NCBI RefSeq assembly: GCF_014203735.1
Contig: NZ_JACHJQ010000006.1
Coordinates: 567,698-631,697, forward strand
Reading direction: 5' to 3'
From: Actinophytocola algeriensis
Lineage (GTDB): Bacteria; Actinomycetota; Actinomycetes; Mycobacteriales; Pseudonocardiaceae
Length of the DNA stretch: 64,000 bases
Shown here: positions 9,167 through 28,156 of the stretch, piece after piece
How positions within the stretch are numbered: position 1 is the stretch's first letter
Layout of the letters: each line of letters starts with the position of its first letter
The notes under the pieces: generated by a model
What the model was told of the DNA's origin: nothing
Databases searched by the model: none
Seen by the model: only the letters and a program-made list of their open reading frames with translations
Position numbers and translations under genes: made by a program

Positions 9167-9192
9167 GAGATGTGGCAACGTTGCCACATCTC
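9167..9192 (+). promoter_or_regulatory. LacI-type operator in front of the kinase-aldolase-regulator operon
   Basis: A perfect 26-bp palindrome centred on AACGTT. Its core TGTGGCAACGTTGCCACA is at 9171-9188. The central CG with symmetric arms is the classical operator form for LacI/GalR proteins. It ends 16 bases before the GTG start of the kinase, so bound repressor would block initiation or early elongation. The same core recurs at 26420-26437 and, as two overlapping imperfect copies, at 22931-22964. The LacI gene at the end of this operon is the obvious regulator, implying autoregulation. Confidence 0.85.
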
Positions 9193-9208
9193 TGGGGAAG
9201 GGAAAAGT

Positions 9209-10594
9209 GTGTCCGGGCTGCTGGCCGGCGTCGACGTCGGGACGACCAACTGCAAGGTCGGCGTCTACACGACAGACGGTACCGCCGTGGTCGAACGGCG
9301 GCGGCCCACCCCCGCCGACGCCGGCAACCTCGTCGCCGGAATCCTGGCTGACCTGCGGTTATGCGTCGAGGAATCCGGTGCGCCGGACGCGGTCGGGGTG
9401 ACCGGGGTGGCCGAGGGCGGACTGCCCCTGGACGACGACCTGTTGCCGATGGGACCGCTGCTGTGGTGGCACGACACGCGGGCGTCGGGTGAGGCCGGGT
9501 GGCTTGCCGACCGGGTGGGACGGAAAGCGATCTTCGCGACCACGGGGGTGGACGTCTCCGCGAGGACGCCGCTCGCTTCGTGGTTGTGGTTGCGGCGCCA
9601 CCAGCCGGCACTCCTTGACCGGATGCGGGTGTGGGTGGGAATTCCCGAGCTCGTGGCGACGGTCCTCGCGGGCACGGCGCTGTCGCACCGGACGTTCGCG
9701 GGGCGGTCCGGGGCCTACGACCAGCTGCGGGACCGGTACGACGACGACCTCCTCGACCTGGCCGGGGTCCGCGCGGGGCAGCTGCCGGACCAGCACGTCG
9801 GGGCGGCGGCGACAGGACCACTCCCAGTAGGCACACCGGTGGTGGTCGCGGGGCACGATCACCTGGTTGCCGCACATGCGGCGGGCGCGCGTGAGCCGGG
9901 AGATGTGGTGGACTCTCTGGGAACGGCAGAGGCGGTGGTGACGGTGTCCGAGCGGGTGGCCCCCCGCGCCGCGGCTGGTTCCGGCACGTCGTGGAACCGG
10001 ACCGTGGACGGCACGCGGTGGGCCATGGTGTCCGGTTTCCCGCACTGTGGCCGCCTTCTCGAGTGGCTGTGCTCGCTGGCGTCACCGGAAGGTGACGTCG
10101 CGGGCCTGGAGAAGGCGGCCGCGTCGGTGGACCGGCGGCCGACCGGGATCGTGGTGCTCCCCTACCTCGGTGGCCTCGGCGCACCGGCCCCGGATCCGCA
10201 CCGGAGGCTCTCGGTGCACGATCTCGCGCCCGGGCAGGGACTGCCGGACGTGCTCGTCGGCGCGCTCGAGGGCGCGTCGTTCCACGCACGGTGGCTCGCC
10301 GAGCACCACGCGGAACACACGGACACCAAGCTCCACGCGGTGACCGTGCTGGGCGGGCCGAGCAGGGGCGCCGCGTGGATGGCGGTGAAAGCGCACGTCA
10401 TGCCGGGTCCGGTGCGGTCGACGGCGACCGCGGACGCGGCGTGCGCCGGTGCGGCACTCCTGGCGGGCACCGCGCTGGGCATGTCGTCTCCGGTGCTGCG
10501 TAGCGATGCCCTGGCACGCGACGATTTCCTCGCCAACCGATACGACGCGATCTACCGGGGCGCATTCCTGCCCCGGGTACGGGAGGTGGCATGA
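9209..10594 (+). CDS. FGGY-family carbohydrate kinase
   Basis: A 461-residue sugar kinase with the actin-like ATPase fold. It has the N-terminal phosphate-1 motif GVDVGTTNCKVGVY, substrate-face segment GPLLWWHDTRA, the mid-protein GHDHLVAAHAAG and DSLGTAEAV, and the adenosine-site segment VTVLGGPSRGAAW. GTG 9209 is chosen because GGGGAAGGGA lies just upstream; extension to 9086 would run through the operator. The FGGY family phosphorylates ketoses or polyols such as xylulose, rhamnulose, fuculose or glycerol. Four-base overlap with the aldolase gene suggests it makes the aldolase substrate, a ketose 1-phosphate. The sugar itself is not identifiable. Confidence 0.9.
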   Translation: MSGLLAGVDVGTTNCKVGVYTTDGTAVVERRRPTPADAGNLVAGILADLRLCVEESGAPDAVGVTGVAEGGLPLDDDLLPMGPLLWWHDTRASGEAGWLADRVGRKAIFATTGVDVSARTPLASWLWLRRHQPALLDRMRVWVGIPELVATVLAGTALSHRTFAGRSGAYDQLRDRYDDDLLDLAGVRAGQLPDQHVGAAATGPLPVGTPVVVAGHDHLVAAHAAGAREPGDVVDSLGTAEAVVTVSERVAPRAAAGSGTSWNRTVDGTRWAMVSGFPHCGRLLEWLCSLASPEGDVAGLEKAAASVDRRPTGIVVLPYLGGLGAPAPDPHRRLSVHDLAPGQGLPDVLVGALEGASFHARWLAEHHAEHTDTKLHAVTVLGGPSRGAAWMAVKAHVMPGPVRSTATADAACAGAALLAGTALGMSSPVLRSDALARDDFLANRYDAIYRGAFLPRVREVA

Positions 10595-11460
10595 CAAGCC
10601 TGACCGAGTTGGCGCGGCCGTCCGGTGGCCTGGCCATGGTGGCGATGGACCAGCGGGAGAGCCTGCGCGCGATGCTCGGCGCGCACACCCCCGCGCCGGT
10701 CCCCGACAGCGACCTGACCAAGTTCAAGCTCGCGGTCGCCGCCGAGCTGGGCCAGCACGCGAGCGGGTTCCTGATCGACCGGACCTTCGGGTTCGACCAG
10801 GTGCTCGCGGAGCGGCTGCTGCCGCCGACGTGCGGGCTGATCCTCGCCGCGGACCGGCTCCAGCACCCACCCGAAGGCGGGCCGGTGGTGCGGACGTCGC
10901 TCGACGAGGACATCAACCCGGCGCACGTCCGTGAGCGCGGTGTGGTCGCGATGAAGTTGCTGCTGGTGTGGCGGCCGGACGAGCACCGGGACGCCCGGCT
11001 CGCGATGGCCGAGGAGTTCGTGCGGCGCTGTGCGGGCGCCGGGCTGCTCTCGGTGCTCGAAGGCGTGGTGCGGCCGACCTCGGACGACGACTTCGACAAG
11101 CTGCAGCTGGAGGCCGCCGCCGAGCTCGGGGCGCTGCGGCCCTCGCTGTACAAGGCGCAGGTGCCAAGACGCGGGGTCGGCGACCGGGGCGAGGTCGCGC
11201 GGGTGTGCGAGCGGATCACCGCGACGGTGCCGGTGCCGTGGGTGGTGCTGTCGCAGGGCGTGACGATCGAGGACTTCCCCCACGCCGTGCGCACGGCGTG
11301 CGACGCGGGCGCGTCCGGTTTCCTCGCCGGCCGCGCCATCTGGAGTGACACGCTCGCCGACCCGACGCCGCTGCTGCGGTCGCGTGCGGTCGACCGGCTC
11401 AAGCGGCTCGCCGAGGTGGTCGACAGCTCGGCCCGGCCTTGGCAGGAGGTCGCTGCGTGA
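10591..11460 (+). CDS. Class I ketose-phosphate aldolase, YihT/LacD-like
   Basis: A 289-residue (beta/alpha)8 aldolase. From memory of the family it aligns along its whole length with YihT, the 6-deoxy-6-sulfofructose-1-phosphate aldolase of E. coli. Shared blocks include SGGLAMVAMDQRESLRAM near the N-terminus, KLLLVWRPDEHRDARLAMAEEF, LEGVVRP, SLYKAQVP (the lysine is the likely Schiff-base residue) and AGASGFLAGRAIW near the end. The family cleaves ketose 1-phosphates or bisphosphates to DHAP (or GAP) plus an aldehyde. ATG 10591 overlaps the kinase stop. No sulfoquinovosidase or sulfolactaldehyde enzyme is evident nearby, so a non-sulfonated substrate is at least as likely. Confidence 0.83.
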   Translation: MTSLTELARPSGGLAMVAMDQRESLRAMLGAHTPAPVPDSDLTKFKLAVAAELGQHASGFLIDRTFGFDQVLAERLLPPTCGLILAADRLQHPPEGGPVVRTSLDEDINPAHVRERGVVAMKLLLVWRPDEHRDARLAMAEEFVRRCAGAGLLSVLEGVVRPTSDDDFDKLQLEAAAELGALRPSLYKAQVPRRGVGDRGEVARVCERITATVPVPWVVLSQGVTIEDFPHAVRTACDAGASGFLAGRAIWSDTLADPTPLLRSRAVDRLKRLAEVVDSSARPWQEVAA

Positions 11461-11482
11461 GCGGAGCCTGCGAGGACGGGTC

Positions 11483-12511
11483 GTGAGCCACGTCGACGGG
11501 GTGCCCCGGCGGGTGACCATTGGCGACGTCGCCAGGGCCGCCGGGGTGTCGCCGTCGACCGCGTCACGGGCGCTCACCGGGCAGGGGTACGCGGCGGCGT
11601 CGGTGAAACTGCGGGTGCTGGCCGCCGCCGACCGGCTCGGGTACGTGCCCGACGACATCGCCCGCAGCCTCAAGCGGCGGACGAGCAGGCTCGTCGGGGT
11701 CGTCATCTCCGACCTGCGCAACCAGTTCTACGCCGACCTCGCCGCCGGGATCGAGCAGGTGCTAGGCGAGGCCGGGTACCAGATGGTGCTGGTCAACGAC
11801 GACGGCGACCGCGACCGCGAGCTGCAGGGCGCGCGCACGCTGCTGGCGATGCGCGTACCGGGCGCGATCGTCACGCCGCTCTCCCCGGAGGCGGGCGCGC
11901 TGCTGACCGCACAGGGCGTGCGGGTCGTCGAGGTGGACCGGCAGATGGCCCAGACCCAGTGCGACGCGGTGCTGGTCGACTCGGAACACGGTGCCCGCGC
12001 GGCCACGACGCACCTGCTCGAGCTGGGGCACCGGCGGATCGCGTTCCTGATCGACGAGCTGGAGTGGACCACCGGCGTCGGCCGGCTCGCCGGGTACAAG
12101 GCGGCGCTGCGGTCGGCGAAGGTCCGGTTCGACCAGAAACTCGTGGCGCGGGTCGGGTTCGGGTCGGGGGACGCGGCCACCGCGTTGTCGACGCTGCTGG
12201 ACGCCCAGCCGGACGTGACGGCGGTGTTCGCGGCGAACAACCTCATGGCGTCGGGGGTGTGGCAGGAGCTGCAGCGGCGGCGGTTGCGGGTGCCCCGGGA
12301 CATCTCGCTGGTGGCGTTCGACGACCTGCCGTGGATGACGATGGTGCAGCCCGCCGTCTCGGCGGTGTCGCAGCCGGTGGTGGCGATGGGGGCGCGGGCG
12401 GCGGAGCTGTTGCTGGCCCGGCTTTCCGGCGAGTTCACCGGTCCGCCGAAGACGGACTGGCTGACGCCGACGTTCGAACGCCGCGGATCGACGCGCAAGG
12501 TGAGCGGGTAG
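11483..12511 (+). CDS. LacI-family transcriptional repressor of the sugar locus
   Basis: A 342-residue regulator. The helix-turn-helix is at residues 11-35 (TIGDVARAAGVSPSTASRAL), the hinge helix near residues 55-62 (DDIARSLKRR), and the rest is a periplasmic-binding-protein-like sugar sensor (LVGVVISDLRNQFYADL ... ISLVAFDDLPWMTMVQPA). GTG 11483 follows GAGGACGGG by a normal spacing and lies 22 bases after the aldolase stop. Family knowledge and the palindromes at 9167-9192, 22931-22964 and 26418-26439 suggest it represses all three transcription units until the imported sugar or a metabolite binds it. Confidence 0.9.
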   Translation: MSHVDGVPRRVTIGDVARAAGVSPSTASRALTGQGYAAASVKLRVLAAADRLGYVPDDIARSLKRRTSRLVGVVISDLRNQFYADLAAGIEQVLGEAGYQMVLVNDDGDRDRELQGARTLLAMRVPGAIVTPLSPEAGALLTAQGVRVVEVDRQMAQTQCDAVLVDSEHGARAATTHLLELGHRRIAFLIDELEWTTGVGRLAGYKAALRSAKVRFDQKLVARVGFGSGDAATALSTLLDAQPDVTAVFAANNLMASGVWQELQRRRLRVPRDISLVAFDDLPWMTMVQPAVSAVSQPVVAMGARAAELLLARLSGEFTGPPKTDWLTPTFERRGSTRKVSG

Positions 12512-12514
12512 CCA

Positions 12515-13915
12515 CTACAGGCCGAGTACCTGACCCTCGTCGCGTAACTGGTCCTGCAGGGCGGCGACGTCGATCCGTTGTACGGCAACACCTTTCCTCA
12601 GCGCCTGTACCGCCGCGAGCCCCGCGGCGTGGCCCAGCATCTCGTACTGCGGCTCCATGCGGACCGAGCTGAACGCCAGGTGCGACGCGCTCACGCACAC
12701 CGGCACCAGCAGGTTGCGGCACTCGCTGTACCGCGGTACCAGGCACCGGTACGGGATCTGATACGGCTGTACCGGAACCGACAGGTAGCCCTCGTTGTAC
12801 ACCGACGGGATCGGGTCCGGGTGTTCGTACACCCACCGCCACGTGCGGCGGACCTCGCGGATGTCCATGTGGTACGAACCCATCGCCACCGTGTCGTACC
12901 GGGGTGCGCTCGTCAGGTCGTGCTGTGTCAGCACGTACTCACCCACCATGCGGCGCGCCTCGCGCACGTACAGCTGGTGCGGGAGCCCGCCGCCGAACTC
13001 GTCCGCCGCCCAACCCCAGCCGTCCAGCAGTCCCCGCGTGGACATGAAGTACAGGAAGTCCTGTGTGTACTCCTGGAACCGGCGCACGATCTCCGCGCGG
13101 CGGCCCGCGGACGCCGTCGGGTAGTCCTGGTGGCTGCCGTCCAGCAGGTTGAGCGACAGCGGGCCGATGGAGTTGCCGTCGCACTTGCCGTTCGGGAGGT
13201 TCCGCACCAGGCCGACCACCTCACCGGGCGAGCCCGTGGCCAGCCAGCGGCGGGCCAGTTCCCATTCCTCCTCGCGGAAACCGTCGCGGCGGGTGAACGG
13301 GACACGGTCGGGTGCCGTCGACAGGCACACCCGGTAGCCGTAGGCCATGACACGGCCGTCGCCCTCGCCTGCCGGGACCTCCTGGCCAGGATCGATCAGC
13401 GGCAGCAACCCGCCGGACGCGTCGAACGGGTGCAGGTACGGCGGGAACTGGTGTTTGCCCGGCGCCGGTTCGGTGCGGCCCGCGAACGGCTCCCCGTGCA
13501 GCGACCGGCTTTCCCGGCCCACCCGGTACGTGACGCCCGCCGCCGCCAGCAGGTCGCCTTCGTAGCTGGCGTCGACGTACACATGGGCGTCGGTCAGCGC
13601 CGGTACCGGCGCGTCGAACTCGACGGTCACGTTCGATGACGCCAGCCACCGGGTGAAGATCTGTTCCGCCACATGGGGTTCCGGGCCCGCGTACCGGTCC
13701 GTGCCGTAGTGGTCGGCGACCGCGGCGCGGAACTCCGCCGCCATGCCGCCGATCACCCTCGAGTCGCCGAGGTCCGTGTAGCCGAGGCCACCGGACACCA
13801 TGCCGCCGACGTGCCTGCCCGGTGCCAGCAGCGTCACCTCGACCCCGTGCCGGGCGGCGGCCACCGCGGCGCACACCCCGGCCGCGGTCGCCCCGTACAC
13901 GATCAGCTCAGCCAA
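12515..13915 (-). CDS. FAD-dependent oxidoreductase (FAD_oxidored, PF12831-like)
   Basis: A 466-residue flavoprotein. The Rossmann start LIVYGATAAGVCAAVAAARHG at residues 3-23 binds FAD, followed by HVGGMVSGGLGYTDLGD and the C-terminal LVPVCVSASHLAFSSVRMEP typical of the FAD_oxidored family found in bacterial polysaccharide-degradation loci. I chose TTG 13915, which overlaps the stop of the preceding gene by eight bases; the longer frame adds only low-complexity residues. It is the last gene of the ABC-transporter operon, ending three bases from the convergent LacI gene. It may oxidise a sugar hydroxyl or a glycosyl intermediate; the reaction is unknown. Confidence 0.8.
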   Translation of the reverse strand: MAELIVYGATAAGVCAAVAAARHGVEVTLLAPGRHVGGMVSGGLGYTDLGDSRVIGGMAAEFRAAVADHYGTDRYAGPEPHVAEQIFTRWLASSNVTVEFDAPVPALTDAHVYVDASYEGDLLAAAGVTYRVGRESRSLHGEPFAGRTEPAPGKHQFPPYLHPFDASGGLLPLIDPGQEVPAGEGDGRVMAYGYRVCLSTAPDRVPFTRRDGFREEEWELARRWLATGSPGEVVGLVRNLPNGKCDGNSIGPLSLNLLDGSHQDYPTASAGRRAEIVRRFQEYTQDFLYFMSTRGLLDGWGWAADEFGGGLPHQLYVREARRMVGEYVLTQHDLTSAPRYDTVAMGSYHMDIREVRRTWRWVYEHPDPIPSVYNEGYLSVPVQPYQIPYRCLVPRYSECRNLLVPVCVSASHLAFSSVRMEPQYEMLGHAAGLAAVQALRKGVAVQRIDVAALQDQLRDEGQVLGL

Positions 13916-15737
13916 GGCTCTCCTCGCACGCCAGCAGCAGCACCCCGACACACCACGCGTGCGACAGCGTCAGCAGCATCCCTTTCGGCTGGTAGCAGGC
14001 GGTCTGGAAGTACCGCTCGGTCACCATCCCGCGGTAGGCGTTGAAGTCGCCGTCCTCGCGGGCCACGAACTGGCGGAAGCACGCCAGGGTCTCCTCCGCC
14101 GACCTCGTGTAGTACTCGTCGCCCGTGTGTTCGCCGAGGCGCACCAGTTCCCGGTGGCAGATCAGGCCGTACGCGTGCAGGTGCTGGTTCGCCGGGGACG
14201 CCTGGTCCGCGCCCCGCGAACGGAAGTCGTAGTGGCCGAGCAGGGTGTGCCGCGGGAAGTCGACGTCATAGGTGTACCGGAACGTGAGCGTCCAGTCCGC
14301 GGCCCGGCGCGCCAGGTCGAGCCACTCGCGGTCGCCATCCGCCTCGTACAGCGACACATACGCCATGATCGCCAGGTAGCCGTCCTCCGACGTGGGCGCC
14401 AGGTCGACGTCTTCCGGCGCCCCGTACAGGAACTCGTCCCGTACCGCCTGTGCGTAGAACCTGCCCGCCCGCTGTGCCTCCGTCACCCGCCCGGCCGACA
14501 CCAGCGCGGGGATCCAGGCCAGGCCGCTCGTGCCGTGGCGGTCGATCACCGCACCGGTCTCCACGTCGTAGCCGGAACCCAGCGAGCCGTCCGCCGCCTG
14601 GCCGGCGCACGCCACGTCCACATTGGAGCCGACCGCGGCCGTCCACAGCGCGGGTGCCCGGCCCAGCGCCACCGCCCGCTGCAGGAACACCGTCGCCTCA
14701 CCGAGGGTGCGGGCGTGCACCCGCCGCCGGTCCGGGGTCCAGCCCGCGTTCCAGCCGCCCTCCCGCGTCCACTGGCCCCAGAACGTGCCGCCGGGTGTCA
14801 GGTTCGCGGTGATGTTGTCCAGCACGGCGCTCGCCGCGTCCACACAGGCCTGGTCGCCGACGCGGCGGCCGTGGCGCAGCAGCGCGTACGCGTGCGGAAT
14901 GCCGCTGAGCCAGGACACGTGCATCGCCTGCCGGTCGCCGCGCTCCCCCAGCGCGTCCCGGTCGAACGCGGCGGTCTCCAGCAGCACCGCGTCCTCGTCG
15001 CGGTAGTGCCACCGGTACAGGCCCCACGCCGTCAGGTCGGCCGCCTCCGCGAGCGACACCCACGGCACCGCGTCGAGGTCCCGGGCCGCGGTCCTGCCGT
15101 GCACGTCCCGCAGCACGTCGGTGTAGGAGTGCCGGTCGCCGCCGAGCACGTACACGTCGAAGTCGAGCGACGCCGTCTCGCCCGGCTTCCACGTGTACGA
15201 CGGGAGGTCCGCCGGGCGCGGCACCGGCGAGCCGTCGTACACCACCGGCTCCTCCCGGTACGGGAAGTGCAGGCGCAGCACCGGATGCCCACCGTCCTCG
15301 TCCTCGTCCACCGCGAAGCCGACACCGGCCTGCCCGAGCGGCGACCACTCGGTGGTCACCAGCGCGGCGCCCCCCTCGTCGTCCCACGCGAACACCGCGG
15401 GCGTTGCGCACCGGTCCGCCCGGAACGACCACGCGTCCGACTCCAACGCGGCCGGGTCAGGATGGTCCACGGTGAACCGCGGGTACCGCACCCGGCAGCC
15501 CGCGACCCGGTTCTCGCCGTAGAACACGCCCGGCACGAGCCACCCCGGGTCCGCGACCGGTCCGAGCCGCAACGACACCCGCAGCCCGGCGGTGACGGCG
15601 GCGGCGGCCGTCACCGTCAGCCGCACCGCGAACCGGCCGCCGTCGTAGGCTGTCACGTGCTGGGTGACCATCAGCGCGGTGCTGTCTACGGTGCTGTCGG
15701 CGGGGCCGAGCACCGTCACCTCGAACGGCGGCGTCAC
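13908..15737 (-). CDS. Putative (alpha/alpha)6-barrel glycoside-acting enzyme
   Basis: A 609-residue protein starting GTG 15737, which overlaps the GH38 stop (GTGA). The first 220 residues look like a beta-sandwich (VTPPFEVTVLGPAD ... FPYREEPVVYDG). Residues about 250-609 are helical, with spaced aromatic and acidic motifs such as AAWGLYRWHYRDED-like, VSWLSGIPHAYALL, GGTFWGQWTREGGWNAGW, SEDGYLAIMAYVSLYEADGD and NQHLHAYGLICH. Beta-sandwich plus six-hairpin barrel is the pattern of several glycoside hydrolase and lyase families, but I cannot assign one. It has no signal peptide. Operon position between a mannosidase and an FAD oxidoreductase supports oligosaccharide processing in the cytoplasm. 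Confidence 0.7.
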   Translation of the reverse strand: MTPPFEVTVLGPADSTVDSTALMVTQHVTAYDGGRFAVRLTVTAAAAVTAGLRVSLRLGPVADPGWLVPGVFYGENRVAGCRVRYPRFTVDHPDPAALESDAWSFRADRCATPAVFAWDDEGGAALVTTEWSPLGQAGVGFAVDEDEDGGHPVLRLHFPYREEPVVYDGSPVPRPADLPSYTWKPGETASLDFDVYVLGGDRHSYTDVLRDVHGRTAARDLDAVPWVSLAEAADLTAWGLYRWHYRDEDAVLLETAAFDRDALGERGDRQAMHVSWLSGIPHAYALLRHGRRVGDQACVDAASAVLDNITANLTPGGTFWGQWTREGGWNAGWTPDRRRVHARTLGEATVFLQRAVALGRAPALWTAAVGSNVDVACAGQAADGSLGSGYDVETGAVIDRHGTSGLAWIPALVSAGRVTEAQRAGRFYAQAVRDEFLYGAPEDVDLAPTSEDGYLAIMAYVSLYEADGDREWLDLARRAADWTLTFRYTYDVDFPRHTLLGHYDFRSRGADQASPANQHLHAYGLICHRELVRLGEHTGDEYYTRSAEETLACFRQFVAREDGDFNAYRGMVTERYFQTACYQPKGMLLTLSHAWCVGVLLLACEESLG

Positions 15738-19709: not shown

Positions 19710-20599
19710 CCCTTGCGCCCCTGGGTGGCGATGCCGTGGATGAAGTGCCGCTGGGCGAGGAAGAACACGACCACCATCGGCAGCACGGTGATCACGCTGC
19801 CCGCGAGGACGATCTCCCACTGCTGCTCGCCGGCCTGCCCGAACCGGTCCGAGATCGCCTTCAGCCCGCGCGGCAGCGTGAACAGCTCCACGTCCCGCAG
19901 GTAGATCAGCGGCTTGAGCAGATCCGCCCAGCTCGCCTTCAGCTCGAACACGAACGTCACGATCAGCGCGGGCTTGCACAGCGGCACCGCGATCCGCCAG
20001 AACAGGCCCCAGTGGCCGACGCCGTCGATGCGCGCCGCCTCGAACAGGTCCCTCGGCAGGCCGAGGAAGAACTGGCGCAGCAGGAAGATGTAGAAGGCGC
20101 TGCCGAACAGGTTCGACGCCCACAGCGGCACCTGCGTGGTGGCGAGCCCGACCGAGTTCCAGATCAGGTAGACCGGGATCATCGTGACCGCGCCCGGCAG
20201 CATCATCGTGGCGAGCACCAGCCCGAACCAGCCGTTGCGGCCGGGGAACCGGTAGTAGGCGAACGCCCACGCCACCATCGCACTCGAGATCGTCACCGCC
20301 ACCGCGGCGGCGAGCGCCACCGTGACGCTGTTGACGAACCACGTCCACACGGGCGCGGCGTCCCAGATCTTCAGGTAGTTCGCGAACGCCCAGTTCCTCG
20401 GCAGGACCAGGTTGTCGAACACCTGCGAGCGCGGCTTGAGCGACGCGGTCAGCACCCACCAGAACGGGTACAGGAACGCCACCGACGCGACCGTGAGCCC
20501 GATCCAGAAGACCACGCGGTTCCCGCCACGCCGCTCGGGGCGCGGCCGTACGGGTGACACGGGCGCCGGCCGTGCCGCGGGCGGTGCGGTGATGGCCAT
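19706..20599 (-). CDS. Carbohydrate ABC transporter permease (MalG-type)
   Basis: A 297-residue inner-membrane permease with six predicted hydrophobic helices. The cytoplasmic EAA loop FFLGLPRDLFEAARIDGVGH (about residues 187-206) docks onto the ATPase. Its N-terminus is a proline/arginine-rich cytoplasmic tail before the first helix VVFWIGLTVASVAFLYPFWW. It pairs with the adjacent MalF-type permease in a CUT1 importer, whose substrates are di- and oligosaccharides. No ATPase gene is in the operon, so a shared MsiK-type ATPase elsewhere is likely, as in other actinomycetes. Confidence 0.93.
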   Translation of the reverse strand: MAITAPPAARPAPVSPVRPRPERRGGNRVVFWIGLTVASVAFLYPFWWVLTASLKPRSQVFDNLVLPRNWAFANYLKIWDAAPVWTWFVNSVTVALAAAVAVTISSAMVAWAFAYYRFPGRNGWFGLVLATMMLPGAVTMIPVYLIWNSVGLATTQVPLWASNLFGSAFYIFLLRQFFLGLPRDLFEAARIDGVGHWGLFWRIAVPLCKPALIVTFVFELKASWADLLKPLIYLRDVELFTLPRGLKAISDRFGQAGEQQWEIVLAGSVITVLPMVVVFFLAQRHFIHGIATQGRKG

Positions 20600-21552
20600 C
20601 AGCGGTCACCGCCCTCGTAGTGGACGAACCGCTTGCTGACCTTGATCTGGATGACCGTGATCACCATGATCACGACGAACAGCAGCCAGGCCATCGCGGA
20701 CGCGTAACCCATGTGCAGGAACTGGAACGCCTGCTGGAACAGGTACACGAGGTAGAACAGCGCCGCGTCGGAGGAGTACGTGGCGGACGCGGAGCTGCCG
20801 TAGAACGCGGCGTAGGCCTCGTCGAAGGTCTGCAGTGCGTTGATGGTCTGCACGATGAGCGTGAAGAACAGCGCGTGGCTGATCATCGGCACGGTGATGT
20901 GCCGGAACCGCTGCCATCCCGACACCCCGTCGAGTTCCGCGGCCTCGTACAGGTCGCGCGGCACGTTGTTGAGCGCGGCCAGGTAGATGATCACCGTGCC
21001 GCCGACCGACCAGATGTGCATGAGCGCGAGGCCGGGTTTGACCCACGCCGGGTCGGTGCTCCAGTCCGGGCCGTCGATCCCGACCAGCCCGAGCGCCCCG
21101 TTCACCAGGCCGACCTGGCCGTTGAACAGCATGAGGAACAGCACGCCGACCGCGACCTTCGGCGTCACCTCGGGCAGGTAGAACAGGGTCCGGAAGACAC
21201 CGGCCGAGCGCCGCCCCACCCGCGAGAGCATCATCGCGAGGCCCAGCGCCACGATCATCGTGCCGGGCACGATCATGATCGCGTAGATGACGGTGTTGGC
21301 GAGGCTCCTGCGGATCTTCGGGTCACTCAGCAACTGCTCGTAGTTCGCGAACCCGACGTTGCTGCTCTCCCGCAGCCCGTCGTAGTCGGTGAACGACAGG
21401 ACCAGGCTGATGATCATCGGACCGCCGAGGAACACGACGAACCCGATGAGCCACGGGGTCATGAACCCGTAGGCCGCCCACGTGTCCCGGTCCCGGAAAC
21501 CCCGCGCCCAGCGGCGGACGCGGGACTTCCTGGACATGTCCAGCGGGTGCAT
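20599..21552 (-). CDS. Carbohydrate ABC transporter permease (MalF-type)
   Basis: A 317-residue membrane protein. It has a cytoplasmic basic N-terminus (SRKSRVRRWARGFRDRD), six helices and the EAA motif NNVPRDLYEAAELDGVSGW. ATG 21552 overlaps the TAA of the binding-protein gene by one base (TAATG), so the two are coupled; the frame extends upstream but only into the binding-protein gene. It is the second channel subunit of the CUT1 sugar importer, whose natural substrates are oligosaccharides or glycosides. Confidence 0.93.
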   Translation of the reverse strand: MHPLDMSRKSRVRRWARGFRDRDTWAAYGFMTPWLIGFVVFLGGPMIISLVLSFTDYDGLRESSNVGFANYEQLLSDPKIRRSLANTVIYAIMIVPGTMIVALGLAMMLSRVGRRSAGVFRTLFYLPEVTPKVAVGVLFLMLFNGQVGLVNGALGLVGIDGPDWSTDPAWVKPGLALMHIWSVGGTVIIYLAALNNVPRDLYEAAELDGVSGWQRFRHITVPMISHALFFTLIVQTINALQTFDEAYAAFYGSSASATYSSDAALFYLVYLFQQAFQFLHMGYASAMAWLLFVVIMVITVIQIKVSKRFVHYEGGDR

Positions 21553-22898
21553 TACTTCGCCGCGTTGTCGAGCGCGGACTGGGCTTCCTCCTGGGCCTGC
21601 TTCATCGCGTCGGCGGGCGACTGCTGGCCGGACAGCACCCGGTTCACCGCGTCCTTCCACGCCGTCTCGAACTCCGAGCTCGCAGGCGAGGCGGGCAGCG
21701 AGAACGCGGACTCCTGGGCTTCCAGCACGCCCTTGACGGCGTTGTCGTAGACCGGGGTGTCACCCAGCTGCACGAGTTCGCCGAAGATCTTCTCGTCCGC
21801 CACCTCGTTGCCGGTGTACACGCCGGTGAACGGCTTGCCCTCGGACTTGCGCTTCTCGACGCGGGCCTCCGCGGCCGCGATCCAGGTCTGCGAGTCGGTC
21901 ATCGTCTTGATCCACTTGCAGGCCTGGTCCTTGTGCTTGGCCGCGGCCGGGATGGCCCACGCGGAACCGGTCACGAAGTCGATCGCCTTGCCCTGCTCGT
22001 CGGTGAACGGCTTCACCGTGAACTTGGCGTCCGGCGAGACGTCGGCCAGCACGTTGAGGTACCAGTCCTCCATCGGGAACGCCGCGAGCTGGTCGGTCGC
22101 GAACGGGTTCTTGTCACCGAAGAGGTCGAACGAGTCGCGGAAGGCCTTGAACGAGCCCCAGCCGCCCTGCTTGTCGATCAGGCCGACCGTGTACTCCAGC
22201 GCGCTGATGATCTTCGGGTCGTCGAGGTTGGCCGTCCTGCCGTCCTCGCTGATCATGTCGACGCCGTTGGCCTTGGCCCACACGGGCAGGAACTCGGGGA
22301 TCTTCGGGTCGAAGCCGATGCGGGTGAGCTTGTCGCCGTTCCGCTTGGTGAGCTGGTCGGTGACGGTGGCGAGCTTGGTGCGGTCGCTGGGGTCGACGTC
22401 GTCCGGCGTGAGGCCCGCGCTCTGCACCGAGGGGTCGTTGATCAGCATGACGCGGTTGTTGTAGAACTCCGGCAGCCCGTAGAGCTTGCCGTCGAGGGTG
22501 ATCTCCGCCAGCGCCGGGTCGCGGAACTGGTCGAGGTCGATGCCCTCCTTCTCGACGCAGTTCTCGAGCGGTTCGATGGTGCCGCGCGCGGCGTAGGTGC
22601 CGAGCTTCTCGCGACCCATGTACACCAGGTCCGGTGGGTTGTCCGACGCGACCGCGGAGAGGAACTGCTGCGGGTCGAAGGCGTTCTCGCTGACCTTCAC
22701 CTTCGCCGGTTCGATGGCCTTGTTCGCGAGGTCCGCCCGCACGGTGGCGATCTCGTCGCCGAGGCCGAAGCCCATCGTCGTGAGGGTGACCGCGCCGCCC
22801 GCGCCCTCGTCGTCACCACCGCCGACGCCGCCGCAACCGGCGAGGACCAGCGCCGTCGCCGCCGATAACGCTGCCACCCGTGGGAATCGCATGGACAT
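21552..22898 (-). CDS. Extracellular sugar-binding lipoprotein of the CUT1 importer
   Basis: A 448-residue solute-binding lipoprotein. The signal MSMRFPRVAALSAATALVLAGC ends in a clear lipobox (LAGC), then a Gly/Asp-rich linker. The mature fold matches family 1 solute-binding proteins (DLVYMGREKLGTYAARGTIEPL; QLAAFPMEDWYL). ATG 22898 is preceded by GGAGG at the right distance; an in-frame ATG at 22949 is rejected because the extension would include operator sequence. It is the first gene of the import/degradation operon, immediately downstream of the double LacI-type operator. It recognises the glycan fragment outside the cell; ligand unknown. Confidence 0.94.
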   Translation of the reverse strand: MSMRFPRVAALSAATALVLAGCGGVGGGDDEGAGGAVTLTTMGFGLGDEIATVRADLANKAIEPAKVKVSENAFDPQQFLSAVASDNPPDLVYMGREKLGTYAARGTIEPLENCVEKEGIDLDQFRDPALAEITLDGKLYGLPEFYNNRVMLINDPSVQSAGLTPDDVDPSDRTKLATVTDQLTKRNGDKLTRIGFDPKIPEFLPVWAKANGVDMISEDGRTANLDDPKIISALEYTVGLIDKQGGWGSFKAFRDSFDLFGDKNPFATDQLAAFPMEDWYLNVLADVSPDAKFTVKPFTDEQGKAIDFVTGSAWAIPAAAKHKDQACKWIKTMTDSQTWIAAAEARVEKRKSEGKPFTGVYTGNEVADEKIFGELVQLGDTPVYDNAVKGVLEAQESAFSLPASPASSEFETAWKDAVNRVLSGQQSPADAMKQAQEEAQSALDNAAK

Positions 22899-22930
22899 CC
22901 GGACTTCCTCCGCGTCGTTGAGGGGAAAGA

Positions 22931-22964
22931 TGTGGCAACGATTCCACATGGAATCGTTGCCACA
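22931..22964 (-). promoter_or_regulatory. Double LacI-type operator upstream of the sugar-import operon
   Basis: Two 16-base arms, TGTGGCAACGATTCCA and its exact complement, flank a two-base centre. Read another way, two overlapping 18-bp copies of the locus operator lie side by side (22931-22948 and 22947-22964). Each has one perfect half-site (TGTGGCAACG or its complement) and one degenerate half-site. It lies 32 bases upstream of the binding-protein start and just after the stop of the upstream glycosidase gene. It should give repressor control to the eight-gene operon running to 12515. Confidence 0.8.
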
Positions 22965-22966
22965 AC

Positions 22967-24610
22967 CTAGGACGGTGTACCGGGCTCGTCAAGGGTGCGC
23001 CTGCAGGCCGCCCACACGCGGGCGACCTCGGCGAGGTCGGCAGGCGTCAGCTCCTCGCCAGACAGGTCGATCCGGTCGGCGTAGTAGAGGGCCGGCACGC
23101 CGAGTTCTGCCTGGATGTCGAGGTAGGCACGCCATTCCGCGCGGTCGGGCAGGCACCAGCCGTCGCTGTCGACCGGCATGCCGGGCAGCGCGGCGGTGAC
23201 CACCGAGGCGCGGTACCGCATGTGCGGCACGACCGGGCCGTCCGGGTCGATCGCGTCGAGCATGCGGATGTCGTTGAGCCGGATCATGTCCGTGACGTCC
23301 GCGAAGGCCGGGTTCGGCGTGTGGGTGACGATCAGCGCGTCTGGTTTGACCGACTTGGCCGTCTTGTACACGAGGCCCAACAGGTGGTGCAGCAGCGCGG
23401 CACCCCACCGGCTGCCCGTGTGCCGCAACGCGGTCCCGCTCGGGGTCTTCGCGAGGAAGTCGACCTTGAGGCCGTCCGCGTCGAGGTCGCCGAGCATGTG
23501 GGTGACGGCGTCGACGACGGTCTTCTCCCCCAGCGGGTGCTCGGGGTCGAGCGCGACCGGGGTGCCGTCGGGCAGCGTCACGCACGCCTCGGCAGGCGCC
23601 CCGTCGGGGTCCCATGCCTTCCACCACAGCAGTACGCGCTGGTTCGCCGCGTGCCGCTCGGCGATCCAGCCACGCAGGTCCGGCCACTTCGTGTCGTCGG
23701 CACGGGAGGTGGCGTAGCGCGCCGCCCACTTGTCGTCGACGACGACGGTGCCGGGGACGACGTCGTGGCGGGCGAGGTGGGCGAGGAAGCGGTCGTAATT
23801 GTCCTGTGTGGACCGTTCCTGGGTGACGCCGGGCAGTGCGCTCTGGGCGCCCCAGCCACAGAAGATCGGTTCGAGCCAGTGCCGGTGGGTCGCCGTCGGG
23901 ACCGGTGGGGCGAGACCGCGGTCGCGCAGCAGGTCGCTGTGTGCGCGGATCGCCGCCTGCGGCGTCTCGTGGCCGAACTGGATCACCACGGCAGGGGTGG
24001 TGAACTCGCCGTCGACGCGGGTGTGGCCCTCGTAGTCAAGGCGCAGGGAGAACCCGTCGGTGCCGCCGGTGTAGTGGAACGACGTGAACGTCTGCTCGTC
24101 GATCGGGGCGGCAATGCCGAGTGCCGCCCACCGGCCGTCGCGGGAGACCGCGTAGCACCACGGTGCCGGGCAGAACAGCCAGCGGCCGACGCCCGGTTCG
24201 GCGCCGTCGCCGGTGACGCCGATGACCGCGGGTTCGGCGGCCGGGCGCACTACGCGGCGCGGGTGGTCGGGGTTGGGCGAGAACACGGTCTCCACCGCGG
24301 ACCCGCTGGGCAGGAACCCGCTGGGTGGCCGGTGGCCGCCGAGCAGGTGGGCGGTGAGCAGATCACCTTGCCCGCGCACGGTCGTGGTGATCTCCAGCCG
24401 GCCGGGGTGGGACTCGAGGACGGTGACGCGTTCGTCCCAGCGGGAGCTGGCGCAGCGGACCTCGATCCGGTTGCCGCGCTCGGTCACGGTCACACCGAGC
24501 GTCTCGTCCGGACCGTCTACTGTGTCCAGTGCGGACAGCAGGCGGAGCTGGAACCACAGCAGGCCGTCGTGTTCCACGGTGACGACCGCGCGTCGCGTGT
24601 CGACCCTCAT
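22967..24610 (-). CDS. TIM-barrel glycosidase, clan GH-D/GH31-like
   Basis: A 547-residue protein. An N-terminal beta-sandwich (about 1-220) is followed by a (beta/alpha)8 barrel. In the barrel, VLLWWKAWDPDG, DGLKVDFLAKTP (the K-x-D pattern of alpha-galactosidase-type nucleophiles), KPDALIVTHTPNP and the late acid region MPVDSDGW are the recognisable elements. This is the organisation of GH36/GH31-type alpha-glycosidases. The exact family is uncertain, and it may be a divergent member. ATG 24610 overlaps the upstream stop (ATGA). It has no signal peptide and is presumably an intracellular alpha-glycosidase of the locus. Confidence 0.75.
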   Translation of the reverse strand: MRVDTRRAVVTVEHDGLLWFQLRLLSALDTVDGPDETLGVTVTERGNRIEVRCASSRWDERVTVLESHPGRLEITTTVRGQGDLLTAHLLGGHRPPSGFLPSGSAVETVFSPNPDHPRRVVRPAAEPAVIGVTGDGAEPGVGRWLFCPAPWCYAVSRDGRWAALGIAAPIDEQTFTSFHYTGGTDGFSLRLDYEGHTRVDGEFTTPAVVIQFGHETPQAAIRAHSDLLRDRGLAPPVPTATHRHWLEPIFCGWGAQSALPGVTQERSTQDNYDRFLAHLARHDVVPGTVVVDDKWAARYATSRADDTKWPDLRGWIAERHAANQRVLLWWKAWDPDGAPAEACVTLPDGTPVALDPEHPLGEKTVVDAVTHMLGDLDADGLKVDFLAKTPSGTALRHTGSRWGAALLHHLLGLVYKTAKSVKPDALIVTHTPNPAFADVTDMIRLNDIRMLDAIDPDGPVVPHMRYRASVVTAALPGMPVDSDGWCLPDRAEWRAYLDIQAELGVPALYYADRIDLSGEELTPADLAEVARVWAACRRTLDEPGTPS

Positions 24611-26418
24611 CGGACGTCCACCAGTGCCTCGGCGTGCTGGCCGAACCGGGTCGCGCCGACGGTCAGGTCCGCGCCGATCCGCGCCCTCCTGCACGCTGTT
24701 CCCGTCGGTGTCACCGTGAACTCGAACGTCTCCGTCGCACGACCGGGCACCTCGGCGGTCGCGGTCGCCGGCTCGGCACGCCAGCCCGCCGGGACGACGA
24801 GCGCGATCGTGACCTCGTCGGCGTCGGCGAACGGGTTGCGGGCCTCGACCTCCACCCCGAACGGAACGCCCGGCCCGGTAGTCACCTGGTAGGGCCGCAG
24901 CCACGCGCCGACCCCTTCCGCGTCGAAGTCCACATCGGACAGCGGGAGCAGCTCGCGGTGGATGCGCGCCAGCTCGGCACCCTTCTCCTCGAGGAGGTCC
25001 AGGTAGGCGTCGTCGACCCGGCGCGGTTCCCAGTGGCCGCTGATCATCAGCTCCGGGCGCAGCTTCCGGTACAGGGCGGCGCTCCTGGTGAAGTCGTCGA
25101 TGCGGAAGCGGTTCTTGTACTGCAGGTTCAGCACCTCGGCGCGCTCCCCCGGCTGCCACGTGGTCGTCTGCTGGTCACCGGTCGCGACGACCCGCTGACC
25201 GTCCACGTCGAAGGCGATCGCCACCGCGTACAGCGTGTGCCCCGGCAGCGGGTACAGCGTCAGCTCGTACTCGTGCCACCGGACCGGCCGCCCGGTCTCG
25301 AGCACGCGGTCGACGGGGATCGGGTCGTACCAGAGGCACGGCAGATCGTACCGCGACGGCGTGGCCAGCACGTCGGCGACCGCGCCCGCCGACCACACCT
25401 GGGTGCCCTCGACCTCGCGCAGCAGGTTGAACCCGGCGACGTGGTCGTCGTGGTAGTGCGTGGGGATCGCGACCTCGACCCGGTCGACGCCGAAGTCGCG
25501 GCGCAGCGGCCCCAGCGACGGCAGCCACGGCCGCCGCGACGACCGGTCGTCGCCGGTCGGCAGGTTGACGATCATGTCGAGCCCGAAGTCGATCAGCAGC
25601 GCGCCGCCGGTGTCGGACAGCAGCACGTAGCTCGTCGCGAAGCTCGTCGTGTTGCGCAGCAGGTGGGGCGTGAGCCGCTCGAACGGGTGCTCCCACTGCC
25701 CACGCGCGTCCCACGGCCGGTCGTGCCGCGAGTCGTGGTAGGCGCGCAGCCGCCGTTCCAGCAGGTCGAACGCCGCCCTCGGCTCGTCGATGGGGTCGCC
25801 GTGCGAGGGCAGCACGAGGTCCGGCGCGCGGGCGCCCAGCTCGTAGAGCGAGAACACGGTCGCCTTGACGCCTTCCAGTGCCGTGTAGGACCACTGGGTC
25901 GCGGCGAGCGACCACACCTTGCCCGCGCTGTGGATCAGGTCGCCGGTGAACGCGAGCCGCCTGCCGTCGACGTCGACGAGGTAGGACACCGAGCCCAGGG
26001 TGTGCCCCGGCGTCGGGACGGTCGTGATGTCGAACCCGCCGAAGCGGCGCGTGCGGTACTCGGGCACGGTGCCCGTGACAGGGACCGGTTCCAGGAGCGA
26101 GAACCGATCCTGCCGCAGGTCGTAGTAGTTGTGGATCGGCCGTTGCTGCCAGTGGGCGTCGACCTTGTCGAACAGGTCGCGTTCGACGGGTGGCACCCAG
26201 ATCCGCGCGCCGTGCGCCACCGCGCGGTGCAGGCCCTGCACCTGGTCGCGGTGGTGGTGGGTGACGAGCACGTCCGTGACCCGGTCAGCACCGAAGTCGG
26301 CGAGGTGGTCGAGCACCGCGCCTTCCCCGAAGTCGATCAGGACCGCGTCCCGGTCACGGACGAGCACGTACACGTTGCAGGTGTCGCGGAACAGGTGGAC
26401 ACCATCGGCCGGCCGCAT
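24607..26418 (-). CDS. Tandem metallo-beta-lactamase-fold protein
   Basis: A 603-residue protein with two MBL folds in one chain plus a C-terminal beta domain (about 515-603). The first fold has H54-H-H56-R-D58-Q59, so the final histidine of the usual HxHxDH motif is replaced by Gln; G138-H-T and a D160 ligand follow. The second has the intact H321-Y-H323-D-D325-H326, then GH394, TGD415 and SGH462. Single MBL proteins hydrolyse lactones, esters or phosphodiesters. ATG 26418 abuts the operator palindrome and lacks a ribosome-binding site, while an in-frame GTG at 26436 lies inside the palindrome. It could open a sugar lactone in this pathway; the reaction is unknown. Confidence 0.8.
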   Translation of the reverse strand: MRPADGVHLFRDTCNVYVLVRDRDAVLIDFGEGAVLDHLADFGADRVTDVLVTHHHRDQVQGLHRAVAHGARIWVPPVERDLFDKVDAHWQQRPIHNYYDLRQDRFSLLEPVPVTGTVPEYRTRRFGGFDITTVPTPGHTLGSVSYLVDVDGRRLAFTGDLIHSAGKVWSLAATQWSYTALEGVKATVFSLYELGARAPDLVLPSHGDPIDEPRAAFDLLERRLRAYHDSRHDRPWDARGQWEHPFERLTPHLLRNTTSFATSYVLLSDTGGALLIDFGLDMIVNLPTGDDRSSRRPWLPSLGPLRRDFGVDRVEVAIPTHYHDDHVAGFNLLREVEGTQVWSAGAVADVLATPSRYDLPCLWYDPIPVDRVLETGRPVRWHEYELTLYPLPGHTLYAVAIAFDVDGQRVVATGDQQTTTWQPGERAEVLNLQYKNRFRIDDFTRSAALYRKLRPELMISGHWEPRRVDDAYLDLLEEKGAELARIHRELLPLSDVDFDAEGVGAWLRPYQVTTGPGVPFGVEVEARNPFADADEVTIALVVPAGWRAEPATATAEVPGRATETFEFTVTPTGTACRRARIGADLTVGATRFGQHAEALVDVR

Positions 26419-26439
26419 GTGTGGCAACGTTGCCACACA
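26418..26439 (-). promoter_or_regulatory. LacI-type operator between the GH84-like and MBL genes
   Basis: A perfect 22-bp palindrome whose core TGTGGCAACGTTGCCACA (26420-26437) is identical to that in front of the FGGY kinase. It occupies almost all of the 24-base gap between the GH84-like stop and the MBL ATG, so it would control an internal transcript covering the MBL and glycosidase genes, or act as a roadblock to transcription from the GH84-like gene. Because it overlaps the translation start, the controlled message may be leaderless. Confidence 0.8.
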
Positions 26440-26442
26440 GTG

Positions 26443-28083
26443 TCAGTACGCGTCCAGCACCGCCATGAGAAAGACGTCGAGCACACCGTCGCCGACCAGC
26501 ACCCCCGTTGTCCGATGCGGATGCCGGTCGTCCCGCACGGCCGCGGCCGACGCCGCCAGGCGCCGCACGTGGTCGTGACCGGTGCCGTGTTCGAGCACGG
26601 GCACGAGCGCGGCGAGCGCCTCGCCCCAGAGCCGCGTCGCCGCCAGCCACGCCTCGGCCTCGACCGCGAACCGCGCGTCGGCGATCCGCCCTGGCAAGGC
26701 GATCAGCCGGTCGGCGAGCTCGGTGAGCCGGGTGATCGCGGCGGCCCGGTCGCCACGCGCGAGGTCGTCCCGGATCACCGCGAGCGCGGCCGCGTGGATC
26801 GGCGCCTGGTCGTGGTGGAGGCGGTCGTCGCGGGTGTTGAGGTCGGCGAAGGCGGCCAGGTCCTCGTCGTCACCGAGCGCGGCGAGCGCACGCCGGTGCA
26901 CGGCGGCGGCATCGAACCCGGTGTCGTCCCAGCCGTACTCGGCGAAGGCCGACAGCGCGACCGTGCTCATGGCGACCTGGTTGGCGGGGTTGGACAGGAC
27001 GCCATCGACGTGCGCGGACAGCCCGTTCTCGCGGCCGTCGTAGGGGCCGAGCGGGACGCGGCCCGCGATGTAGTCGTTGACCGGGTAGTTGTCCCACACC
27101 AGGATCGGGTGACCGAACAGCTCCCGCGCCTGCCGCGCCTCCTCGACGGTGATGGTGGCGGGGATGACGTCGTGCCCGGTCCACCACACGGCGGTGTCGG
27201 GGGCGAGCAGGTCGCGGACCTCCTTCTTGTACCGGGTCGCCGCCAGCCCGTGGTACTCGGTGGGCACGAACTGGACCGGCACCCCCGCCCACTCGCGCAC
27301 CCGGTTGACGAGCCACGCGTGGGCGGCCCCGAGGTGGCCGTGCGCTGCCTCGTCACGCGGGTCGTGCCACACCGTGGGATCGATGTCGTCGAGGGCGACG
27401 CAGAAGTCCGCACAACCGAGCGCGCGGACGGCGGCGAACTTCGCGAGCAGGGCGTCGAGGTCGGCGGGTTCGCTGTACCGGATGGACAGTCCCGGCGAGA
27501 CGGTGAACACGAAGCGGACGTGGTTGGCGCCCGCGCGGTCCACCAGCTCGGCGAGGCGTGCCAGCTCGTCGGGCGGGTACGCCTCGCGCCAGCGGTCCCG
27601 GTGGTAGGGGTCGTCCTTGGGTGCGTACACGTAGGTGTTCATGCGGTGCGCGCCGAGGAAGTCGAGGTGTGCCAGGCGTTCGCGGTGCGTCCAGGGGGTG
27701 CCGTAGAAGCCCTCGATCGACCCGCGCCAGGCCATCGCGGGGTGGTCCTCGACGGTGACCGACGGCAGCCCGTCGTCCAGCAGCCTCGCGAAAACCTGCG
27801 CGGCGTAGAAGGTTCCGGCCTCGTCGCTCCCTTCGAGCAGGACGTCACCGGGTCCGGTGACGACGCGATAGGCCTCCGGTCTGCCCGGCCCGCGCGCGAA
27901 CCGGATCGTGAGGTCGGGGTCGGGCACCCCGACCCGGTGGATCCCGGCGGCGGCGAGCGCGGACCGCACGACCGTCTCGGCCGCACGGTCCGCGCCGGTC
28001 ACCCCGACGAGCGCGACCGTGCCGAACGGAACCCCACCACCGTGCCGAGTGAGCCGCCGAGGCGGCGGAATGATCAACGACAT
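26443..28083 (-). CDS. GH84-like beta-N-acetylhexosaminidase
   Basis: A 546-residue enzyme. An N-terminal GH20b-like domain (about 1-115) precedes the GH84 barrel, which opens with the family hallmark WRGSIEGFYGTPWTHRER (about residues 119-136) and continues MNTYVYAPKDDPYHR. The paired catalytic aspartates are D232-D233 in VALDDIDP, as in O-GlcNAcases and bacterial hyaluronidase-like GH84 enzymes, which use substrate-assisted catalysis on N-acetylglucosaminides. There is no signal peptide, unlike most GH84 toxins. ATG 28083 sits directly behind a good leaderless promoter. It presumably removes terminal beta-N-acetylhexosamine from imported fragments. Confidence 0.87.
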   Translation of the reverse strand: MSLIIPPPRRLTRHGGGVPFGTVALVGVTGADRAAETVVRSALAAAGIHRVGVPDPDLTIRFARGPGRPEAYRVVTGPGDVLLEGSDEAGTFYAAQVFARLLDDGLPSVTVEDHPAMAWRGSIEGFYGTPWTHRERLAHLDFLGAHRMNTYVYAPKDDPYHRDRWREAYPPDELARLAELVDRAGANHVRFVFTVSPGLSIRYSEPADLDALLAKFAAVRALGCADFCVALDDIDPTVWHDPRDEAAHGHLGAAHAWLVNRVREWAGVPVQFVPTEYHGLAATRYKKEVRDLLAPDTAVWWTGHDVIPATITVEEARQARELFGHPILVWDNYPVNDYIAGRVPLGPYDGRENGLSAHVDGVLSNPANQVAMSTVALSAFAEYGWDDTGFDAAAVHRRALAALGDDEDLAAFADLNTRDDRLHHDQAPIHAAALAVIRDDLARGDRAAAITRLTELADRLIALPGRIADARFAVEAEAWLAATRLWGEALAALVPVLEHGTGHDHVRRLAASAAAVRDDRHPHRTTGVLVGDGVLDVFLMAVLDAY

Positions 28084-28091
28084 GCCTGCCT

Positions 28092-28119
28092 ACGGTAGGG
28101 GCTCCCCGGTGATCGTCAA
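28092..28119 (-). promoter_or_regulatory. Sigma-70-type promoter of the GH84-like gene, probably leaderless
   Basis: TTGACG (28119-28114) and TACCGT (28097-28092) are separated by 16 bases on the minus strand and fit the actinomycete -35 TTGAC and -10 TAnnnT pattern. The expected start point lies within a few bases of the ATG at 28083, so the message would have no leader, consistent with the absence of a ribosome-binding site. Confidence 0.55.
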
Positions 28120-28156
28120 CCGGTCGGCGAGTCGCGACCGTGTCCTTTCGCGGCCG

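Follow-up and report, generated by a model that had tools for sequence, protein, structure and literature searches.

A predicted LacI-type regulon for glycan uptake and intracellular degradation in Actinophytocola algeriensis

A stretch of 64,000 nucleotides from the soil actinobacterium Actinophytocola algeriensis (contig NZ_JACHJQ010000006.1, positions 567,698 to 631,697), called the window here, possesses between positions 9,167 and 28,083 a set of genes for sugar import, glycoside hydrolases, sugar kinases, and a LacI-family regulator. It is very likely that these genes form a local LacI-family regulon that serves to take up a glycan and degrade it inside the cell. The glycan probably contains mannose, and one LacI repressor probably switches the gene set. 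An 18-bp palindrome and the genes that it precedes are conserved together across families of Actinomycetota. An earlier note on this DNA had already read the locus as a LacI regulon. As far as sequence can tell, that reading is supported by the confinement of the palindrome to the locus in its genome, by the co-occurrence of sites and genes within the genus, and by the same gene families in other genera. The earlier note also held that the gene combination fits no named pathway, and no published account of this gene set was found in the open-access literature (most subscription papers were outside reach).

The palindrome and the units it heads

The palindrome TGTGGCAACGTTGCCACA occurs without mismatch at 9171-9188 and 26420-26437. 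Between these lies a double site, made up of one copy at 22931-22948 (two mismatches) and an overlapping partner at 22947-22964 (four mismatches). The two copies share two bases, and together they form a 34-bp inverted repeat with 16-bp arms. These are the places that the earlier note had picked out, and the window has no further place with three or fewer mismatches. The chance mean at this threshold was 0.08 for the window, and three such places were reached in 0 of 100 shuffles. In the whole genome (9,733,683 bases, 23 contigs), four places were found with up to three mismatches, as against three for the reversed pattern, and three of the four are the sites of the locus. The fourth (C12:84904, three mismatches) is within an open reading frame that resembles an acyl-CoA ligase by eye. 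It was rejected as an operator because it lies inside an unrelated gene and is at chance level. The palindrome is thus nearly confined to the locus, whereas its dispersal elsewhere had been named in the earlier note as grounds for doubt. A chance origin was rejected based on the window and genome scans, the genus comparison, and the positions of the site in the loci of relatives.

Three units are headed by these predicted operators. The first operator (9171..9188) lies 20 bp before the start of an FGGY kinase gene, which is followed by an aldolase gene and the LacI gene. The second (22931..22964) precedes genes for a binding protein, two permeases, a ROK kinase, a SIS isomerase, a GH38 enzyme, and two proteins referred to here as GHaa6 and the flavin adenine dinucleotide (FAD) enzyme. 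The third (26420..26437) precedes genes for two further proteins, MBL2 and GHD. Most adjacent genes within the units overlap by a few bases. The FGGY, aldolase, and LacI genes are on the plus strand. All other genes of the locus are on the minus strand and are, from the right, GH84, MBL2-GHD, and the importer unit. The LacI gene (11483..12511, plus strand, start approximate), which the earlier note had placed in one of the units, is therefore in the FGGY unit. Its product carries a LacI helix-turn-helix, conserved in relatives, and a periplasmic-binding-protein-like effector domain (Peripla_BP_3); PF00356, PF13377, and PF00532 were all above cut-off.

The third operator ends one base ahead of the likely start codon of MBL2 (ATG at 26418-26416, minus strand), and appears to be nearer to it than operators usually lie. 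The earlier claim that each palindrome heads a unit holds for the FGGY, binding-protein, and MBL2 units. It does not extend to the gene for the GH84 beta-N-acetylglucosaminidase (26443..28083, minus strand; Pfam NAGidase, E 4e-96). This gene runs from 28083 to 26443 and ends before the third operator, so no palindrome heads it, and none was found within seven mismatches in 28000-28400. GH84 appears to be an associated neighbor rather than a demonstrated member of the regulon.

Conservation in the genus, the order, and the phylum

Six Actinophytocola genomes were compared. Two congeners, G001 and G004, share all three sites with the window genome. The FGGY site is exact in G001 and has one mismatch in G004, three mismatches were counted in the binding-protein site of G001 and two in that of G004, and the 34-bp double site is kept in both. 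The MBL2 site is exact in both, and also in G519, which belongs to another genus of the family. In G002, G003, and G005, one match with three mismatches was found each, which is not above the reversed controls (three, two, and two). The three genomes that hold the three sites also have MBL2 and GHD, both of which are absent from G002, G003, and G005. Within the genus, the sites are thus present where the locus is present and, beyond chance, absent where it is not. The aldolase gene is retained in G002, with a short FGGY-like match beside it, and in G005, while the rest of the set is absent from the 20-28 kb read. GH84 was not found beside MBL2 in G001 (12 kb read) or in G004 (8 kb read).

An independent check was made through MBL2, which was found in 4 of 298 genomes of the order, including the window genome. 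The other three, G519, G542, and G636 (the last two from one genus), each hold MBL2, GHD, LacI, the binding protein, the permeases, GH38, GHaa6, and a GH1 enzyme together. ROK-SIS and a GH2 enzyme were present in two of them. Each of these stretches has two sites, ahead of MBL2 and of the binding-protein gene, and none for the reversed pattern. In G519, the order is GH84, site, MBL2, as in the window. There was no aldolase or FGGY gene in the 34-36 kb around MBL2 in these three genomes. The aldolase gene is found elsewhere, 2 to 6 kb beyond the stretch in two genomes and 1.6 Mb away in G519. In all three, it is accompanied by genes for a DeoR regulator, an FGGY kinase, and an Asp/Glu-racemase-like protein (in G519 also a DUF1537-type kinase). 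No site with up to four mismatches was found in the 13-18 kb around these aldolase genes. In all, the aldolase is present in 11 of the 298 genomes, namely the four with MBL2 and seven without it (Fisher's test, 1e-6; 2.8e-5 without the window genome; kinship uncorrected).

The wider distribution was explored through the aldolase. The best 80 of 102 relatives were kept, giving 1.48 Mb of loci. They come from 79 Actinomycetota, some of them metagenome-assembled genomes (MAGs) of Thermoleophilia, and from a single MAG of Chloroflexi. Among the loci, L023 and L024 belong to the congeners G004 and G001, respectively. With up to three mismatches, 49 sites were found in 36 of the 80 loci, compared to two for the reversed form; at four mismatches, the counts were 81 and 10. 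As for position, 47 of the 49 sites are at -60 to +250 bp relative to a gene start of the set, compared to 13.8% of 20,000 random positions, and the other two are inside open reading frame calls. Gene starts within -60 to +450 bp of a site were those of the first permease (15), binding protein (11), ROK (9), FAD enzyme (6), GH38 (4), FGGY (3), aldolase (3), GHD (3), GH1 (1), GH2 (1), a second GH38-like family (1), and unlabelled genes (9), with divergent pairs counted twice. Base counts give a consensus of roughly TGTGG[C/G]A[A/T]CG[A/T]T[G/C]CCACA. The comparison of gene neighborhoods proposed in the earlier note thus came out in its favor, in that the site fronts the same gene families in other genera.

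Encoded proteins and a proposed pathway

The family profiles agree with the gene content given in the earlier note, which comprised CUT1 import, four hydrolases, two kinases, a GmhA-like isomerase, an aldolase, a metallo-beta-lactamase-fold protein, and a flavoenzyme. Import can possibly be carried out by an SBP_bac_1 solute-binding lipoprotein (21552..22898, minus strand; lipobox LAGC, by eye) and two CUT1-type ATP-binding cassette (ABC) permeases on the same strand, one MalF/UgpA-like (20599..21552, start approximate) and one MalG/UgpE-like (19706..20599). There is no ABC ATPase within the locus; in actinobacteria, the ATPase is usually a shared one encoded elsewhere. The GH38 alpha-mannosidase (15734..18151, minus strand, start approximate) has the Pfam domains GH38N and GH38C and the middle domain above cut-off, and is Ams1-like by PDB ranking. 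The hydrolases of the locus have no visible signal peptide by eye, so breakdown of the glycan is probably intracellular. Two kinases are present, of the ROK family (18714..19694, minus strand, start approximate; family profiles) and of the FGGY family (9209..10594, plus strand). The latter has FGGY_N and FGGY_C above the Pfam cut-off and reaches no NCBIfam equivalog cut-off. The SIS_2 isomerase (18148..18717, minus strand) belongs to the phosphoheptose isomerase (GmhA) family. Its match to 1tk9 has an E of 6e-43, and 13 of its 17 PDB matches are named phosphoheptose isomerases. It keeps the GmhA motifs GNGGSAADAQH, TSGxS, and RIQExH. The class I aldolase of the DeoC/LacD family (10591..11460, plus strand; Pfam DeoC above cut-off) has YihT, a sulfofructosephosphate aldolase, as its closest solved relative (PDB 7ag1/1to3/7ag7, E about 1e-62; next best 5e-17).

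From these proteins, a mechanism can be proposed. When the substrate is missing, LacI would sit on its sites, block the three units, and repress its own gene. A sugar derived from the glycan would free LacI from the sites. An oligosaccharide would then enter through the CUT1 importer and be trimmed inside the cell by exo-acting enzymes, GH38, the GH31-like GHD, and possibly GHaa6 and GH84. The ROK kinase and the SIS enzyme would act on mannose by phosphorylation and isomerisation, respectively. Another sugar, of ketose type, would receive a phosphate from the FGGY kinase, and the YihT-like aldolase would then cleave it into dihydroxyacetone phosphate (DHAP) and an aldehyde.

Four of the proteins are less easily placed. 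GHD (22967..24610, minus strand) is below the Pfam cut-off for GH31 (PF01055), with an E of 0.063 for the window protein. Among its members, 9 of 29 match PF01055 at E up to 0.1, the best at 0.0014, and models of the protein suggest a clan D fold and a putative GH31-like alpha-glycosidase. GHaa6 (13908..15740, minus strand) has no Pfam family at cut-off. It is modeled as a beta-sandwich and an (alpha/alpha)6-barrel, with a predicted local distance difference test score (pLDDT) of 80.3 and a predicted template modeling score (pTM) of 0.86. The fold resembles GH76, AGE, GH105-type enzymes, and a lyase alike, with no Pfam AGE match, and absence from a fold list was never used to exclude a family. 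Across the 80 loci, GHaa6 is present in 12 of 24 loci that lack the Asp/Glu-racemase-like gene and in 5 of 56 that have it (p 1.1e-4, from cut stretches and uncorrected for kinship), which hints that the two may replace one another. MBL2 (24607..26418, minus strand) is a tandem metallo-beta-lactamase-fold protein with a C-terminal NEW3-like domain (match below cut-off), and its metal-ligand-like motifs are conserved in 22 aligned members, the window protein included. The FAD-dependent oxidoreductase (12515..13915, minus strand, start approximate; PF12831, E 1.4e-91) has homologues that are preceded by a site in six instances among the 80 loci. It is a guess that MBL2 and the FAD enzyme act as a lactonase/oxidase pair. 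In four Thermoleophilia-type MAGs (L047:7315-9158, also L051, L067, and L070), the FAD enzyme is near genes that by eye encode an AP-endonuclease-like sugar isomerase and a Gfo/Idh-like oxidoreductase. This pairing is known from 3-keto-glycoside chemistry.

The FGGY kinase and the YihT-like aldolase form a separable module, which in relatives is often beside genes for DeoR and a 3-oxo-tetronate kinase. The aldolase is therefore not integral to the cluster. The earlier note had grouped it with the regulon, a point that calls for correction. Frequent same-strand neighbors in the 80 loci are aldolase-racemase (54), FGGY-aldolase (51), DeoR-DUF1537 (31), DUF1537-AldII (28), ROK-SIS (22), SIS-GH38 (19), and GHD-MBL2 (17). 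The DUF1537 genes pass the NCBIfam cut-off as 3-oxo-tetronate kinase in two of two tested, and the AldII genes score best as 3-oxo-tetronate decarboxylase but below cut-off, again in two of two. No DeoR gene was found in the five loci whose site precedes FGGY or aldolase (L023, L024, L036, L042, and L054). This suggests that LacI captured the module, in a small sample in which L023 and L024 are congeners. As general alternatives, DeoR and LacI were rejected, since there is no anticorrelation over the 80 loci, and a swap from DeoR to LacI is proposed only for loci that have FGGY or aldolase right behind a site.

It is conceivable, but rather unlikely, that the module is an undescribed sulfonate-free counterpart of sulfoglycolysis that was rewired from DeoR to LacI in the window lineage. 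A ketose derived from the glycan would be phosphorylated at C1 and then split into DHAP and an aldehyde. In relatives, the aldehyde would pass through the racemase-like enzyme and the 3-oxo-tetronate kinase and decarboxylase, yielding another molecule of DHAP. A sugar of seven carbons would be consistent with a DHAP aldolase that is accompanied by four-carbon acid chemistry and a GmhA-type isomerase. Because the window genome lacks a PF07005 kinase, the 3-oxo-tetronate branch was rejected as a part of this organism's pathway.

Other arrangements of the module were seen in relatives. Two Micromonospora loci (L038:7198-12314 and L079:7186-12326) have two more genes in the aldolase operon, one for another DUF1537-like kinase and one that is TIM-barrel isomerase-like (both by eye); with these, a four-carbon acid branch would be complete. 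In Planctomonas (L077:8466-11610 and L100:8415-11550), the FGGY-aldolase-racemase-like trio is inside what by eye resembles a haem-biosynthesis cluster, and no gene of the stretch is labelled as a glycosidase. Nine Nonomuraea-type loci (L028, L030-L034, L037, L041, and L044) have a rhamnogalacturonan-lyase-like gene, so labelled from PF21348 in one member scanned, at a distance of up to about 5 kb from the aldolase gene. The racemase-like protein (L026:869-1558 and 55 relatives; PF01177 in one member scanned) has an invariant cysteine (TCSS). A conserved Gln-Ala-Ser replaces the usual second catalytic cysteine (position judged by eye), so the protein may not be a racemase. The locus itself is flanked on the left, at 5118-8081, by a gene for a SARP-type regulator with BTAD, NB-ARC, and TPR domains and on the right, at 30724-31860, by one for an archaeo-eukaryotic release-factor-like protein of baeRF family 2.

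Weighing of explanations and comparison with known systems

Several observations weigh against the regulon. The GH84 gene has no site of its own, and a simple scan, which misses some actinobacterial promoter types, gave no sigma-70-like promoter. The earlier note had proposed checking that the site always precedes these genes in related genomes. This is so for the 47 sites given above, but 23 of the 54 loci with core genes show no site with up to three mismatches, and 5 of the 26 loci with no core gene in view do show one. The 80 loci were picked by aldolase and are related, so their counts are not independent. When a relaxed pattern, TGTGGNANCGNTNCCACA, was scanned in 394 genomes of the class, 27 matched and one stretch of each was read. 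Two stretches had regulon genes beyond GH1, one being the window, and three had GH1 only. Most of the relaxed-pattern sites were TGTGGGAGCGCTCCCACA, which is probably another LacI-type operator. The relaxed pattern was rejected as a class-wide detector, as it mostly catches other LacI-type boxes. Finally, the window genome has a ManA-type mannose-6-phosphate isomerase elsewhere, which profile PF01238 alone failed to detect. The SIS enzyme is thus not needed for mannose alone, its role as an essential mannose-6-phosphate isomerase is weakened, and a heptose phosphate may be its substrate. From sequence, mannose-6-phosphate and heptose-7-phosphate appear equally possible.

The palindromes could be bound by a different LacI-type protein, such as a global regulator, with the local LacI being incidental. 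Similar palindromes, probably of another LacI type, do occur in the class. However, the site is almost confined to the locus in its genome, and orthologous LacI genes, with a closely similar helix-turn-helix among those compared, are present in many site-bearing loci, which makes this explanation very improbable. Sulfoglycolysis in disguise, in which GHD would be the sulfoquinovosidase, GHaa6 would be an isomerase like YihS, and the FGGY kinase and the aldolase would take the kinase and YihT steps, has an equally slight chance of being correct. The 14 proteins of the locus include no PfkB kinase, the kinases being FGGY and ROK, and no sulfolactaldehyde reductase or dehydrogenase, and no recurrent family present in over a dozen loci is an additional unassigned enzyme. 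GHaa6 fits GH76 at least as well, and GH38 and GH84 would be left without a role. By its gene content, the locus does not appear to be sulfoglycolysis as described.

A cluster for the utilisation of N-glycans or mannoproteins, for which bifidobacterial and streptococcal clusters serve as a model, is a more specific form of the glycan regulon rather than its opposite. Only mannose and N-acetylglucosamine would matter in it, and the FGGY-aldolase pair would handle a minor branch sugar. GH38 and GH84 are certain at the family level, the CUT1 importer and the ROK kinase fit, and in relatives the set is joined by GH2 and GH1 and, as judged by eye, by genes resembling NagB and GH4 and genes for a BadF-type kinase. 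However, even with GH38 and GH84 present, no GH85 or GH18 endo-enzyme and no GH92, GH125, or fucosidase match was found among the 14 proteins, GH84 is not beside MBL2 in two congeners, and GHD, GHaa6, MBL2, and the FAD enzyme would be left unexplained. This narrower form can be held tentatively, and the broader reading of a LacI regulon for a glycan is preferred.

The regulon is of a well-known type with unusual content. Local LacI regulons have a regulator with a sugar-binding domain, a palindrome with central CG, importer and catabolic genes, and a self-controlled regulator. The locus has the same regulator domains, its palindrome too has CG at the center, and its importer and catabolic genes, like the regulator gene itself, lie behind such sites. 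An operator that stays before the same genes across families of Actinomycetota defines the regulon, for which no published account was found in the open-access papers searched. The 18-mer offers a cheap handle for collecting members of an orphan glycan pathway, and it points to two putative carbohydrate-active enzyme families, GHD and GHaa6, that are below Pfam thresholds.

The cellobiose repressor CebR of Streptomyces binds boxes that are LacI-type 18-bp palindromes. The TGTGGGAGCGCTCCCACA type of the class scan resembles these, although its boxes are only candidates for CebR sites. Compared to the operator of the locus, boxes of this type have other central bases and mostly other neighboring genes. 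The 3-oxo-tetronate (OtnK/OtnC) pathway is a four-carbon acid pathway. Relatives resemble it in placing an OtnK-like kinase and an OtnC-like decarboxylase beside DeoR, FGGY, and aldolase, whereas the branch is unused in the window genome. In the parts consulted of a survey of LacI-family carbohydrate regulons, a mannose/mannoside group (ManR) is listed, but not this set, and the gene content of the locus differs (PMC4052901). With the sulfo-Embden-Meyerhof-Parnas (sulfo-EMP) pathway of E. coli and Arthrobacter, the locus shares, here by sequence, a YihT-family class I aldolase that would give DHAP from a ketose-1-phosphate, and, in models, GH31-like and AGE-like folds. As far as the consulted parts of these accounts go, it differs in having FGGY in place of PfkB, no sulfolactaldehyde enzyme, an extra mannosidase and N-acetylglucosaminidase, and LacI control (PMC9594981, PMC8873060, PMC12890257). 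The YihT-like aldolase is probably not sulfoglycolytic here, and annotation of such a locus as sulfoquinovose degradation from the aldolase alone would therefore mislead.

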